Assembly (NCBI RefSeq): GCF_022843985.1
Contig: NZ_JALHMP010000018.1
Location: forward strand, 1-64,000
Direction: 5' to 3'
DNA: 64,000 bases
DNA from: Phreatobacter sp.
GTDB lineage: Bacteria; Pseudomonadota; Alphaproteobacteria; Rhizobiales; Phreatobacteraceae
The notes below the pieces were generated by a model. It saw only the letters and a program-made list of their open reading frames with translations, was not told where the DNA came from and did not search any database. The translations under genes were made by a program, and so were the position numbers. Below, piece after piece: positions 459 to 23,632 of the stretch (position 1 is the first letter of the stretch; each line of letters opens with the position of its first letter).

Positions 459-1832
459 ATGTCTTCCCTAGAGGAACTAGGAAAACTATCAATGTATCGC
501 AGTCTTGATATCCGCATTGATCGGGAGGGGCGTGTGTTTTTCGCGCTGCCGCTGCCGTCGCCGGTTATCAATAAGTATAAAAATTTCTCGGTCGATGTTG
601 TCTACGACTGTTTTCGGTTTTGTGTTGATGTTGATGATGAAATTTCTCTTCCACTGGCGAGTAATTCATTCGCAGACGCGCGCAGCGCTGTCACAGCGGT
701 TGCAGACCAGGTGATGGCGCGGCTGCTTGAATTGGAGAAATCAGCTCATGCTGATTTGATTGTCGCGCCTGATGTCCAATTGGCTCCGCGATCTGATCTA
801 TGCGGGACTGTGCTGGCCGGTAGCGGTTCCATTGCTCCGAGAGGGGCCTCCCCGTCTTGCGCAGCCGATCCGCAGACGCTGACCTTCGCGGAGCTGTTCG
901 AGGCCTGGGCCCTCCAGCATGTGCAGACGGGCGGCGCGCCGACAACGCCGCCCTACTGGCGCGTTCTCATCCAGCGCTTCGTGGTTTTTCTCGGCCACGA
1001 CCGGCCGCAGGACGTTACCGCCCATGACATCCGGGCCTATCGCGACCATCTCATCGCCACGGGGCGACGGCTGCGAACGGCCCGCCATTCCGACTTCGCG
1101 GCGCTCCGCGCGCTGTTCCAGTTCGCGGTGGAAAACGAGGTCGTGACGGGCAATCCGACGACCGGCATCCGCTTCAAGCCGGAACGGCTGGCGGCGACGC
1201 AGGCGATGAAGGCCTTTTCGCCGGTTCAGGCGCGCGGCATTCTGGCCGCGGCTGACCGCGAGACTGTCGCGGCGCGCCGCTGGATTCCGTGGCTGACGGC
1301 GCTGACCGGCAGCCGTGTTGCGGCCATCGCCAATCTGCGCAAGCAGGATGTGGTCGAGGTCGAGGGCATCTGGTGTCTCAGGATCAGCCGCCAGGCGGGG
1401 CCGATCAAGACCGCCGCCTCGGAGCGGCTGGTGCCGATCCATTCCGCCATTCTGGCGCGGGGCTTCCTCTCCTTCGTCGACAAGACCGACAGGGAGCGGC
1501 TGTTCATCGAAAAGCCCCTCGTGGGCAACGGGTTGCAGCCGATGATCGCCGCCGAAACCGGGCCGCCGGTCTATCATCCGGGGCGCAGCACGTTGCGCCG
1601 CCTGACCGACTGGCTCCATGGGCTGGATCTCGGCATCGGCCGTGACGCGAAAATCGACCCCAATCATGCCTGGCGGCACTGGTTCAAGGAGCAGGCCTTC
1701 GCCGCGGCGGTGCCGGAGAAGATCACCGATGCCATTGTCGGTCATGCGCAGGCGACGACGTCGCGCCGCTACGGGTCCGTCTCCATGGTGATGATGGCCG
1801 AGGCTTTGGAGAAAATCCGCCCGCCGGTCTGA
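459..1832 (+). CDS. Tyrosine recombinase / site-specific integrase
   Basis: This 457-residue phage-type integrase should cut and join DNA through a tyrosine nucleophile. A core-binding domain spans about residues 141-235 and the catalytic domain about 250-455. All catalytic residues are visible: R286 (in TGSR), K317, H403 and R406 (in HAWR), H429 (in VGHA) and Y438 (in RRYG). Residues 1 to about 115 are encoded by clearly AT-richer DNA with different codon use, while the rest is GC-rich like the chromosome, so the gene looks composite. No tRNA or obvious att duplication adjoins it, and no excisionase or cargo lies downstream, since the porin pair follows at once. The ATG at 459 is the first in frame; a later start is possible. 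Confidence 0.88.
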   Translation: MSSLEELGKLSMYRSLDIRIDREGRVFFALPLPSPVINKYKNFSVDVVYDCFRFCVDVDDEISLPLASNSFADARSAVTAVADQVMARLLELEKSAHADLIVAPDVQLAPRSDLCGTVLAGSGSIAPRGASPSCAADPQTLTFAELFEAWALQHVQTGGAPTTPPYWRVLIQRFVVFLGHDRPQDVTAHDIRAYRDHLIATGRRLRTARHSDFAALRALFQFAVENEVVTGNPTTGIRFKPERLAATQAMKAFSPVQARGILAAADRETVAARRWIPWLTALTGSRVAAIANLRKQDVVEVEGIWCLRISRQAGPIKTAASERLVPIHSAILARGFLSFVDKTDRERLFIEKPLVGNGLQPMIAAETGPPVYHPGRSTLRRLTDWLHGLDLGIGRDAKIDPNHAWRHWFKEQAFAAAVPEKITDAIVGHAQATTSRRYGSVSMVMMAEALEKIRPPV

Positions 1833-1870
1833 CGCGGGGAGGGGGACGCCTCTGTTCTCAAGGTCCGAAA

Positions 1871-1902
1871 CGCAAAGAACCCCGGCGGTTGCCCGCCGGG
1901 GT
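1871..1902 (-). terminator. Rho-independent terminator of the left porin
   Basis: A perfect 9-bp stem (CCCCGGCGG, loop TTGC, CCGCCGGGG, 1880-1901) lies just past the left porin's stop. Read on the minus strand it is followed by an interrupted T-tract (TTCTTTGCGTTT). It is the mirror image of the terminator after the right porin. Confidence 0.75.
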
Positions 1903-1937
1903 CTTTGAGACTGGAACCGGTCTGAGACCGGACCCGA

Positions 1938-3347
1938 TCAGAAGTTGCGCTGGACGCGCAGCATGCCCGACCAAGCCGAGGCAGAACCGGTCGTCCGCGC
2001 GCCGGACACAGCCGGCGCAACGAAGCCGCCCGCATTGGTGCGCGAGGAAAGGCTCTGGTACACAATCTCAACACCGAGGTCGAGGTTACGCACCGGCGAC
2101 CAGACCGTGTTGGCGCCAACGGCCCAATAACGGATGTCGTTCAGGCTGGCACCCTGAGTGTTAACCGACGGGCTGTCGATCGCCACGTAACGGCCCCAGA
2201 GAGCGCTGCGCAACGCCGGGGTCCAAAAGTGCCGGAAGCCGCCGAACACACCCCAAGCCGTCGACTTGCGGATACCCGTACCAGCCGCGTTAAGCGCTCC
2301 GTCGGCGTATGTCGCCGTCAAAATGCCAACAGCCTGGGTCTGACGGGTCTGGGAAATTCCGTCCGAGTTATCGTTCGTAAAGACGTAGGCGAGAGCGCCG
2401 TCGGCATAGGCTGCCTGCAACCACAGCACGTCGCCACGGGCAAGCATGTCGAGGTTCAGACGGACGCCACCACCGACAGCCCAACCGGCCGCAGAGGCGC
2501 TAGCAGCCGGGACGAGAGCGTTAGTGTTGGTCCGAACCTCATGATAGGCCGCCATAATCTGGGCGGAACCCCACCCCTGATCGACGCGGAGGTTTGCGAC
2601 CACATCCGGAAGGCTGTTGCCATTGTAGATGACGCCATTCGCCGCCGCTGCAGCGGTAAACGTACCGGTCGCTGCCGCGAAAGTCGGCAAGGAACCGATA
2701 CGGCGGAACTGCGGATCCTCGATCGAGACCGTGGCCGAGAAGCCCGAACCGAACGACGCCGTGTAGGCGATGAGGTTTGAGGATTGACGCGACGCATCAA
2801 GCGCTGCACCGCCACCACCGACAAACTGAACATCGCCCTGGTAGAAGTTGAAGAACGAGGCCGAGTTACCGAACGTGAAGCCAGCGAACTGGATGAACGC
2901 GCGGGACATGTAGGCGGCCGAGGCCTGAACCGTGGCGCCCTGGCCGGTGTTGCCGAGAGTAAACGGCAGCGCAGCATTTGCCGGGCCGCGCTGGATGAAG
3001 AACTCACCGTAGGCGCGGAGGAGGCCGTACTCGGTGTTCGAGCGGGCGTCGAAGTTCAGCAGCACGCGGGAACGGGTCGAGTAGACGTTCGTTGCGCCGC
3101 CAAAAGCTTGCGCAACGTAGAAGTCGGCGCGGACATAGCCGCCGATGCGAAGGCAGGTGTCGGTGCCCGGGATGAAGAAGAAGCCCGCGCCGTAGGTGTC
3201 GCAGATGCGCACGTACTCGGCGGGAGCAGCCTTGCCCGGGAGATCCGCTGCCTGAGCGCCGGTGAGGGCAACGAAGCCCGCCGCAGCGCCGAGAAGAAGG
3301 CTCTTCGCAGCACCCCGACTCTGGCCGCGCGAGGGGCGAATCCCCAT
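1938..3347 (-). CDS. Porin, Omp2/Rhizobiales type, with a replaced leader start
   Basis: This 469-residue outer-membrane beta-barrel porin would let small hydrophilic solutes diffuse into the periplasm. After the signal peptide (cleavage near AQA-AD) it carries the conserved CDTYGAGFFFIPGTDTC segment and ends in FRVQRNF with the C-terminal aromatic that barrel proteins use for assembly. It is a close paralogue of the porin on the opposite strand at 3897-5258. The paralogue begins MKTV-KSLLLG, but here similarity starts only at KSLLLG. The first 14 codons come from unrelated DNA (MGIRPSRGQSRGAA), and the usual start region is absent. An AAAGGGG 5 bases before this ATG could serve as ribosome site, and the longer arginine-rich n-region could still act as a signal peptide, so expression is possible but uncertain. 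It may be a silent recombination partner. Confidence 0.85.
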   Translation of the reverse strand: MGIRPSRGQSRGAAKSLLLGAAAGFVALTGAQAADLPGKAAPAEYVRICDTYGAGFFFIPGTDTCLRIGGYVRADFYVAQAFGGATNVYSTRSRVLLNFDARSNTEYGLLRAYGEFFIQRGPANAALPFTLGNTGQGATVQASAAYMSRAFIQFAGFTFGNSASFFNFYQGDVQFVGGGGAALDASRQSSNLIAYTASFGSGFSATVSIEDPQFRRIGSLPTFAAATGTFTAAAAANGVIYNGNSLPDVVANLRVDQGWGSAQIMAAYHEVRTNTNALVPAASASAAGWAVGGGVRLNLDMLARGDVLWLQAAYADGALAYVFTNDNSDGISQTRQTQAVGILTATYADGALNAAGTGIRKSTAWGVFGGFRHFWTPALRSALWGRYVAIDSPSVNTQGASLNDIRYWAVGANTVWSPVRNLDLGVEIVYQSLSSRTNAGGFVAPAVSGARTTGSASAWSGMLRVQRNF

Positions 3348-3896
3348 TCGGGCCCCTTTGCGCCGAGTCGCAGGGGGCCTGGGACTGGATCGGGGTCATG
3401 GTGCCGATTCGCAGCCATATCCGGGGGAAACAGGCCGCCGAGAGACCGGATCTGTGGCATTCCGCCTGAAACCGGCCTTCCGGGGCAGGAGTCGCTGCGC
3501 CATGGCCCGGCGGGCCCGACACGCCCGTAGCAGCGGGCGGGGCCATTAACGCCCTCACGCCGCGGTGACTGGTGGAATTCCGTTTTTTTTCATAAACTTG
3601 TCATCAATTGCCACGGCACTGTTGTGGTTAAGAGGCGCGTGTCCTTCCTGCAACAGTTCCCCCCAAAGCCGGCCCGGGACCCGTCTGGAGCCGTTCTTTC
3701 GATTGATCGGCGCGGGGGCATCGGTAATGGTGACCTTGCGACGAAGGGGGGCACCCCGGTCGCACCGCCCTTCCTGGGGTCGAACGGCAGATCGCCACGA
3801 CAGCAGAAAAGGCGGCCACACGGGGAATATCGGAACCAAAGCCGTCAAAGGCGCGGAACCAGGCTCCCTCAGGAGAAACATTTGGAGGTCTACACA
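3348..3896. other. 549-bp divergent region between the two porins
   Basis: This region holds the 5' flanks of both porins. There is a T8 run and AT-rich segment near 3581-3635, and the long leader of the right porin ends in the ribosome site GGAGG at 3884-3888. The half next to the left porin (about 3350-3540) is GC-rich and does not resemble the right porin's leader. I found no convincing -10/-35 pair and no separate gene. Confidence 0.5.
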
Positions 3897-5258
3897 ATGA
3901 AGACGGTTAAGAGCCTTCTTCTCGGCGCTGCGGCGGGCTTCGTTGCCCTCACCGGCGCTCAGGCAGCGGATCTCCCGGGCAAGGCTGCTCCCGCCGAGTA
4001 CGTTCGCATCTGCGACACCTACGGCGCGGGCTTCTTCTTCATCCCGGGCACCGACACCTGCCTTCGCATCGGCGGCTACGTCCGCATGGATGCCTACCTG
4101 ACGCAGACGTTCGCGCCGGGCAACAATGCCTACACGACCCGTACCCGCCTGCTGCTGAACTTCGACGCCCGCTCGAACACCGAGTTCGGCCTCCTCCGCG
4201 CCTATGGCGAGTTCTTCGTCCAGCGCGGCCCGGCCAACAACGTCCTGCCCTTTAACGTCGCCACCGGCGCTGGTATCACTGGACAGGCCTCGGCCGCCTA
4301 CATGTCCCGCGCGTTCATCCAGTTCGCTGGCTTCACGTTCGGCAACTCGGCCTCGTTCTTCAACTTCTACCAGGGCGACGTCCAGTTCGTTGCTTCGTCG
4401 GGCGCCGCCATGGACCCGTCGCGCAACTCGTCGAACCTCATCGCCTACACGGCGTCGTTCGGTTCGGGCTTCTCGGCCACGGTTTCGGTTGAGGATCCGC
4501 AGTTCCGCCGCATCGGTGCTCTGACGACCACCAGCGTCGTCGGTGGCATTCAGACGTTTACCGCTCCGATCGCTGCCAACGGCGTCATCTACAACGGCAA
4601 CGGCATCCCGGACGTCGTCGGTAACCTCCGCGTCGATCAGGGCTGGGGCTCCGCTCAGGTCATGGCTGCCTTCCACGAGGTCCGCTCGACCATCGGTGGC
4701 ATCGGCCGCTCCTCGACCGGCTGGGCCGTCGGCGGTGGCGTCCGTCTGAACCTCGACATGCTCGCCCGCGGCGACGTGCTCTGGTTGCAGGCGGCCTACA
4801 CGGACGGCGCTCTCGCCTATGCCTTCACGAACGATAACTCGGACGGTCTGGTTCAGACCCGTCAGACGGTTGGCGTTGGTCTCCTGACCTCCACCTACGC
4901 TGATGGCGTGTCGAACGCCGCCGGCACCGGCATCGTGAAGTCGAAGGCCTGGTCCATCCACGGTGGTTTCCGCCACTTCTGGACCCCGGCTCTCCGCTCC
5001 GCCATCTGGGGCAAGTACGTCAACGTCGACGCCCCGGGCGGTGCCGCTGCTCTCGCCAACAACCTGACCGACTTCCGGTTCTGGCAGGTTGGCGTGAACA
5101 CCATCTGGTCGCCGGTTCGTAACCTCGACCTCGGTGTTGAGGTCGTCTATTCGAACCTCACCTCGCGCAACAACCTCAACGGTGGCGTCGCCAACGGCAC
5201 GACCATCGGCAATGCCAACGCCTGGTCGGGCATGTTCCGCGTCCAGCGCAACTTCTGA
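3897..5258 (+). CDS. Porin, Omp2/Rhizobiales type (intact copy)
   Basis: This 453-residue porin has a clean signal peptide (MKTVKSLLLGAAAGF through AQA), the disulphide-type segment CDTYGAGFFFIPGTDTC, and a barrel ending FRVQRNF. The ATG at 3897 is chosen because GGAGG sits 8 bases upstream and the signal peptide starts there; in-frame codons back to 3624 have no ribosome site. It should form trimeric general-diffusion pores in the outer membrane. It stands head to head with its paralogue at 1938-3347, and the two coding regions plus terminators form a large imperfect inverted repeat. They differ mainly in the variable surface loops, for example residues after QTFAPGNNAY, as seen in Brucella omp2a/omp2b. 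Confidence 0.93.
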   Translation: MKTVKSLLLGAAAGFVALTGAQAADLPGKAAPAEYVRICDTYGAGFFFIPGTDTCLRIGGYVRMDAYLTQTFAPGNNAYTTRTRLLLNFDARSNTEFGLLRAYGEFFVQRGPANNVLPFNVATGAGITGQASAAYMSRAFIQFAGFTFGNSASFFNFYQGDVQFVASSGAAMDPSRNSSNLIAYTASFGSGFSATVSVEDPQFRRIGALTTTSVVGGIQTFTAPIAANGVIYNGNGIPDVVGNLRVDQGWGSAQVMAAFHEVRSTIGGIGRSSTGWAVGGGVRLNLDMLARGDVLWLQAAYTDGALAYAFTNDNSDGLVQTRQTVGVGLLTSTYADGVSNAAGTGIVKSKAWSIHGGFRHFWTPALRSAIWGKYVNVDAPGGAAALANNLTDFRFWQVGVNTIWSPVRNLDLGVEVVYSNLTSRNNLNGGVANGTTIGNANAWSGMFRVQRNF

Positions 5259-5295
5259 TCGGGTCCGGTCTCAGACCGGTTCCAGTCCAAAAGAC

Positions 5296-5326
5296 CCCGG
5301 CGGGCAACCGCCGGGGTTCTTTTTTG
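5296..5326 (+). terminator. Rho-independent terminator of the right porin
   Basis: A 9-bp perfect stem CCCCGGCGG, loop GCAA, CCGCCGGGG is followed by TTCTTTTTT. It is the mirror copy of the hairpin after the left porin, showing that the duplication includes the 3' flank. Confidence 0.9.
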
Positions 5327-5689
5327 CGCCGGGTGGTCGCCATGAACCAGCCTCCCACCGGGAGCCGCGGCCAAAGCGGCGATGTCTTTCTGGGATGGGC
5401 GGTGGTCCTGGACCCCGCCGCGTCCGGGCAGGCCAGCGTCGTTCCAGGGCGTCATGGCCAGTTTCGCGCGCCGCGTTACGCGAGACGATATATCAAATAT
5501 GCCATGTAGTTGTGGTGAAATCCTCAAGCGGACTGGGTGAATCCGCCTGTCGGCCTCCCTTGCGCGGCGCATGGCCCGGCTGCATGCGAGACGCTAGTCT
5601 GCATCCGGGATTCGCCGGTGCTGGCACCGGCAGCAAGGCCTGGACGGCAAGGGGAGATGGGGATGGTGACGATCCGCGGGGATGACATC
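5327..5689. other. Gap between porin terminator and OmpA-family gene
   Basis: About 360 bases without a supported gene. A short AT-rich patch lies around 5485-5520. In-frame codons upstream of the OmpA-family gene reach back to 5537 but lack the look of coding sequence. I see no clear promoter pair. Confidence 0.4.
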
Positions 5690-22381: not shown

Positions 22382-22505
22382 GGCGTCGCCATCCTTCTGC
22401 AGGCACTGTCGGTGGCCATGCGCCACCTCTGCTAGCCAAATCGTTGCCGTGCATCCAAGAACGACCGATCCCTGATCCGAGAGCTGCGCTTCGCCTGGAG
22501 GCCCC

Positions 22506-23362
22506 ATGGCCGTCACCACGTCGCCCGCCGCCATGGCCGAACAATGGCGTGACCAGGATTGGCGCGACGAAGATGGTGAATTGCTGCCCGCCGTCGTCCA
22601 TCTGGTCCAGTCGATCCTGCGCGCGGATGACCGCGACAGCCTGAAGAGCCTCGTTTCCGAGGCCCATGAGGCCGATCTCGGCGCCTTGCTCGCCCAGCTC
22701 GACGCGGAGGACCGCAGCAGGGTCGTGTCCCTGCTCGGCGCCGCCTTCGACTTCAACGCGCTGAACGAGATCGACGAGACGATCCGCGCCGAAATTCTCG
22801 AGGACATGGCGCCGGCGGCGGGCGCTGGACTATCCAGAGCGTCTGGACCACGGCCAAGAGCCGCTTCCGCTGGTTGCTCATCAATCTCGTCACCGCCTTT
22901 CTCGCGACGACCGTGCTCAAATCCTCCGAGAACCAGCTCGAGACCATGGTCGCACTCGCCGTGTTCGCGCCGATCGTCGCCAGCCAGGGCGGCAGTGCGG
23001 CGACGCAGACCATGACGGTCGCGGTCCGCGCGCTCGCGACCCGCGCGCTCGGTCCGCGCAACGCCTGGCGCGTCGTTCGCCGCGAGATGCTCGTCGGCCT
23101 GTTCAACGGCATCGCCTTCGCGCTCATCACCGGAACGGTGGCGAGCTTCTGGTTCACCAATGCCGGCATCGGCATGGTGATCGGGCTCGCCCTCGTCTGC
23201 AACCTGGTGGCCGGCTCGCTCGGTGGCGTGCTGGTCCCCCTGGCGCTCGACCGGATGAAGGTCGACCCGGCGATCGCCTCCGGCCCCTTCGTGACGACGG
23301 TGACCGACGTGACCGGGTTCTTCAGTTTCCTGATGATCGCGACATGGTGGTTCAGATTGTGA
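22506..23362 (+). pseudogene. mgtE: Broken mgtE magnesium transporter (internal deletion plus frameshift)
   Basis: The first part (22506 to about 22810) reads as the start of the MgtE N domain, up to ETIRAEILEDM, with GGAGG before the ATG. The frame then runs into unrelated residues. From about 22825 a different frame (+2) reads WTTAKSRFRWLLINLVTAF and continues through all five membrane helices to a stop at 23362, with the conserved ASQGGSAATQT and GPFVTTVTD segments. Most of the N domain and the whole CBS pair, roughly 180 residues, are missing between the two parts. A normal MgtE has about 450-470 residues. This looks like a deletion with frame loss, either a true pseudogene or an assembly error. 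A TTG at 22874 opens a frame for the membrane part alone. Confidence 0.82.
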
Positions 23363-23632
23363 ATCAGCCGCGCTGTCCTGTTTGTTGATCCCGCTCGCAA
23401 AAGTCCCACGCCTCGCGTCTGCGGCCGTGGCCGCGTTCGGCAGGTGGCGCCCAAGCCAGCCCGGTGCGCGCATTCTCGCCTGCCGCTGGCCGTGACAACG
23501 CCGGGCATCGTGTCCGGAAGGGCGGTGTCAGGCCGGGTATGAGGGGGCTGTCCGGCGTTTTGTGTCCTCGACAGCGCCGCTGACGTCGGGCAGGGTCGCG
23601 GCCTTCCTTCAGCCTTCCGACGGACCCCTGCC

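Follow-up and report, generated by a model that had tools for sequence, protein, structure and literature searches.

The window, the stretch of 64,000 bases analysed here (bases 1-64000 of a 95.7-kb contig from a draft Phreatobacter genome of 4.33 Mb in 53 contigs), shows at 22506-23362 an mgtE locus that is very probably a recent pseudogene of a dispensable gene, whose loss would be tolerated beside CorA. Half of an MgtE_N domain is encoded there, and in another frame an MgtE membrane domain of full length. The orthologue is intact at the same place in relatives and the window gene has a frame-breaking lesion, two marks of a pseudogene; the lesion is probably recent and real, and the case one of ordinary gene decay.

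The 5' mgtE remnant (22506..22821, + strand) retains the start codon with roughly half of the N domain and corresponds approximately to residues 1-105 of the 470-aa relatives (up to about 107, the last few being common to the joint). From ATG 22506, which is preceded by GGAG, this piece shows an MgtE_N match of 30.7 bits over profile positions 2-51 of 102, and no NCBIfam match. The frame now opened by the original start (22506..23015, + strand, in the ORF list) encodes 169 aa: the N piece and then out-of-frame residues. Next to the N piece is a block retained from the lost stretch (22822..22839, + strand), in a third frame, where the relatives encode ALDYPE. The 3' mgtE remnant (22838..23362, + strand) spans residues 297-470 of the relatives, from the end of the linker through the complete membrane domain; no start belonging to this piece is recognisable. 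Read in the frame of TTG 22874-23362, the membrane domain matches PF01769 with 119.2 bits over positions 2-125 of 125. The P(D/A)x4Px6D motif, as given in a part of PMC9276622, is kept in its translation, and the second membrane motif is PX6GS, not PX6GN, as it is also in the congeners G003, G009 and G007. Neither piece shows a CBS match in the profile search, and no single frame of the window mgtE encodes the N domain together with the CBS region and the membrane domain. The window sequence 22874-23359 scores 115.4 bits with TIGR00400, below the curated cut-off of 232.75, while the intact gene of G003 scores 318. Compared with the intact relatives, this gene has lost the CBS region and one half of the N domain, so the loss of the regulatory region claimed in the earlier note is confirmed. 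The plug helix would be lost too, by its position between the CBS and membrane domains in the architecture given in a part of PMC8104411. The genome contains only one PF01769 match, and the same profile search shows no second mgtE elsewhere. Two more MgtE_N (PF03448) matches, without the MgtE membrane domain, are found in contigs C19 and C27: one of 26.6 bits at G000:C19:31528-31683 (L032), above the cut-off, and one of 23.2 bits at G000:C27:6492-6800 (L033), below it.

Five congeners were aligned (G003, G009, G007, G005 and G006), and the window mgtE is shorter than theirs by 556 bp, close to the 550 missing bases estimated earlier; all five show one open mgtE frame and the two anchors at identical positions. 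Comparison of the window with G003, G009 and G007 shows three diagonals: the N part to 22821, the block to 22839 and the membrane part from 22838. The diagonal steps are 125 and 431 bp, which add up to 556 bp. None of these lengths is divisible by three; N piece, block and membrane domain therefore each have a frame of their own, and the internal loss with a frame shift first noticed in the sequence is thus borne out. At the joint of the 125-bp deletion (22815..22821, + strand) 7 nt (GCGGCGG) are found on both sides and the diagonals overlap in the comparison with G003; at the joint of the 431-bp deletion (22838..22839, + strand) 2 nt (AG) are found on both sides, with overlapping diagonals in the comparison with G009. 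The block 22822-22839 matches G009 at 16 of 18 positions, a value reached in none of 2000 shuffles. A single deletion was considered and rejected, as one diagonal step cannot account for this block. On the evidence of the three diagonals and of the block match to G009, the lesion is taken to be two deletions or one complex event, not one simple deletion. The earlier claim of one deletion joining the N domain to the membrane domain therefore stands as to the loss and falls as to the single event. Short-homology deletions can give rise to ordinary bacterial pseudogenes. The window gene resembles these in its out-of-frame deletions, in the short common sequence at the joints and in the alternative transporter that remains, and differs from them in having two deletions with a short block retained between them.

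The intact genes of G003 (L035) and G009 (L036) show MgtE_N at residues 54-154, CBS at 220-275 (one Pfam CBS match each) and MgtE at 341-463. They encode the MgtE channel (TIGR00400; PF03448, PF00571, PF01769), and the window shares with them the locus and the neighbours on both sides; their single frame encodes 470 aa and includes a CBS match, whereas the window gene has 556 bp missing in two places and its pieces in three frames. DNA identity in the N part is 93% to each of G003 and G009, and in the membrane part 93% to G003 and 89% to G009. The two best named loci for the membrane domain belong to Phreatobacter MAGs (95% and 91% identity), which points to Phreatobacter as the genus. The flanks of the locus are collinear with G003, G009 and G007. 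Elsewhere in the window, 881-5335 has its matches in two sets of places that overlap, both in G007 and in G009, as neighbouring paralogous genes would.

Across the 12 genus genomes mgtE is intact in eight, broken in one and not found in three. The eight, out of 11 other genus genomes, contain it in one frame of at least 480 codons from stop to stop; with the frame-breaking deletions of the window, this favours the plain pseudogene that had been put forward as one option. The genomes G001, G004 and G011 show no DNA match to this mgtE longer than 48 nt: G004 shows none, G001 a single one of 48 nt and G011 a single one of 33 nt. By profile, G001 has only a match below the cut-off, and G004 and G011 have a distant MgtE, 32-33% identical. 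G001 is 89% complete, which makes the absence of mgtE there uncertain. G004 and G011 have genes from either side of the locus in place, with no long match around 19.8-23.4 kb. The wider comparison contains 86 loci: 80 kept of 471 found, and six genus loci; some share a genome, and both G003 and G009 are included. The 84 relatives are not mutually independent. The membrane domain lies within at least 465 codons in 84 of the 86 loci, and the other two (L053 and L066) run off contig ends. Short open frames with a PF01769 match were observed in G024:C2:184908 (186 codons, profile positions 91-125) and, at a contig edge, in G025:C374:2 (53 codons). G008 shows a second match to the N part of mgtE at a contig start (G008:C1:401-570), besides one near the contig end, perhaps a repeated contig end.

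The integrity of neighbouring genes was used as a control. ORFs were initially chosen by length, and 16 of 39 were flagged against G007, five of 19 against G009 and four of 12 against G003; many of these ORFs are antisense frames of GC-rich DNA, and this control was replaced by one requiring a third-position excess. With the replacement, small indels account for most of the flags, which fall on five of 19 genes in the comparison with G009 and on 18 of 41 in that with G007. Coverage below 80% is shown against G009 by mgtE alone among the 19 control genes, and against G007 by three of 41: mgtE (0.59), a 244-aa ORF (0.12) and a 448-aa ORF (0.66).

Between mgtE and the RraA-like gene, G003 contains a GGDEF-EAL gene and a frame with DUF1330 sequence, assigned by its likeness to that of G009; G009 contains the DUF1330 gene only and the window neither, and the absence of both from the window speaks for the pseudogene reading. 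The window spacer 23363-23632 shows about 140-160 bp without clear match in G003 or G009, and a search of 23363-23545 for remnants of the missing downstream genes gave only short matches at chance level. In the tract 22838-23137, which was picked after the data were seen, 28 informative sites group the window with G003 and six group it with G009, whereas in the compared flanks it groups with G009 (G003 130 versus G009 299 sites). The change-over begins at the joint of the 431-bp deletion. This arrangement is consistent with foreign Phreatobacter DNA having given rise to the 431-bp deletion, by homology on one side and short common sequence on the other. Such homology-facilitated illegitimate recombination would explain how the pseudogene came about and does not compete with that reading; we consider it unlikely. 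Of the 28 sites, 13 show the outgroup G007 in agreement with the window and 13 in agreement with G009, which does not single out the lineage that recombined, and this, with the post hoc choice of the tract, weakens the proposal.

The membrane part of the window gene shows five residues found only in the window, four of which occur in none of the 84 relatives; two sit at invariant columns, F in 84/84 and L in 84/84. The same count gives 0/1 for G003 and 1/7 for G009 (one-sided Fisher p = 0.03); the value for G007 (0/6) is uninformative, as G007 itself is among the 84. These counts are small and support that the membrane remnant has begun to gather unusual residues. The membrane domain, called intact earlier, is full-length by PF01769, but with two invariant columns changed the word is too strong. 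A branch test with a purpose-written codon model gives for the membrane part an omega of 0.048 on the window branch and 0.025 elsewhere (LRT 1.03, not significant), and omega = 1 is rejected (LRT 8.84). With the alternative tree the values are 0.059 and 0.026, with LRT of 1.44 for the difference and 6.61 for omega = 1. In the N part the window branch is no different from the rest and omega = 1 is not rejected (LRT 2.04). A clear relaxation on the window branch was therefore not found by branch dN/dS, and most of this branch was under constraint. Since omega = 1 is rejected without significant relaxation, the break, if real, is recent; our reading is that the gene was long under constraint and broke late. 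The same branch result would equally be expected from an assembly error or from a membrane part still in use.

An assembly error, with mgtE intact in the cell and 125 and 431 bp dropped by the assembly, would agree with the draft state of the genome and with a membrane part that looks largely constrained. It would need two separate wrong joins within one gene, where the common joint sequence of just 7 and 2 nt would offer little for an assembler to collapse. The residues found only in the window fit a gene that no longer matters, and mgtE is the only gene of 19 poorly covered against G009. Taken together, these data make an assembly error quite improbable.

The earlier note also proposed an ungated channel, re-initiated for instance at TTG 22874. 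The membrane domain would then be translated alone, from such a start or through a -1 shift, as an unregulated magnesium channel. No stop interrupts the membrane frame between 22670 and 23362, omega = 1 is rejected for this part, the P(D/A)x4Px6D motif is kept, and archaea and metazoa have MgtE relatives that lack CBS, as stated in a part of PMC9276622. These SLC41 and archaeal relatives resemble the window remnant in having a membrane domain without the cytosolic CBS part, but in them the motifs are doubled (same part of PMC9276622), whereas the window encodes a single domain that is out of frame and lacks a start signal. TTG 22874 is the first ATG, GTG or TTG in the membrane frame, and the 20 nt before it contain no Shine-Dalgarno-like motif; no slippery heptamer is found in 22660-23010. 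The codon at this position is CTG in the five aligned relatives, so there is no conserved start. Since the upstream frame ends at 23015, 141 nt beyond the TTG, a restart coupled to termination would be implausible. No magnesium riboswitch or other such RNA was found, as Rfam at gathering thresholds gave two tRNAs only. The changes at two columns invariant in 84/84 relatives and the long frames in 84/86 loci also argue against a gate-less product. The published results on the loss of the gate disagree, in the parts of the sources available: removal of the N domain stunted growth in TRPM7-deficient cells, that is, lowered function, while an opposite earlier result is cited in the same paper (PMC3435302), and Mg-free MgtE, with its cytosolic part disordered, has a membrane domain open inside, closed outside and non-conductive (PMC8104411). 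From these results, a gate-less MgtE domain, even if made, need not be open. The proposal is not supported, and we hold a gate-less channel to be highly improbable. The same very low credence is given to a freed membrane domain translated at low level as an unregulated magnesium leak, with main uptake via CorA; if this were true, the rejected neutrality on the window branch would be real constraint. In the upstream spacer 22430-22440 the five aligned congeners show CTTGCC and the window CTAGCC, a change which could be decay of the mgtE promoter or could belong to the divergent gene at 22381-21611.

A recent pseudogene, the preferred reading, would have arisen by two deletions of 125 and 431 bp, or perhaps one complex event, with short common sequence at the joints, which took away the CBS region, one half of the N domain and, judged by its position, also the plug helix. 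As the original start remains, translation would give about 105 N-domain residues and then nonsense to 23015, and the membrane remnant, on small counts, has begun to collect unusual residues. CorA is found in all 12 genus genomes, with one copy in this genome, and the loss of mgtE would be borne because this genus-wide channel remains. The earlier note had named a second intact mgtE or a corA as support for decay; corA is present and a second mgtE was not found. Eight of the 12 genomes contain both CorA and an intact MgtE of this type, two proteins that seldom co-occur according to the part of the review PMC9276622 available. In G004 and G011, congeners without this mgtE, the counterparts of window 17281 and 17409 flank a corA (L150 in G004:C21 and L151 in G011:C27), which lies a few kb from the expected mgtE site. 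The MgtE literature searched, available in part, gave nothing on this locus, which is no proof of its absence from print. The main consequence is for annotation: a functional MgtE should not be attributed to this genome, nor should 22874-23362 be labelled a short transporter. In Phreatobacter mgtE is variable, whereas CorA is present in every genome of the 12.
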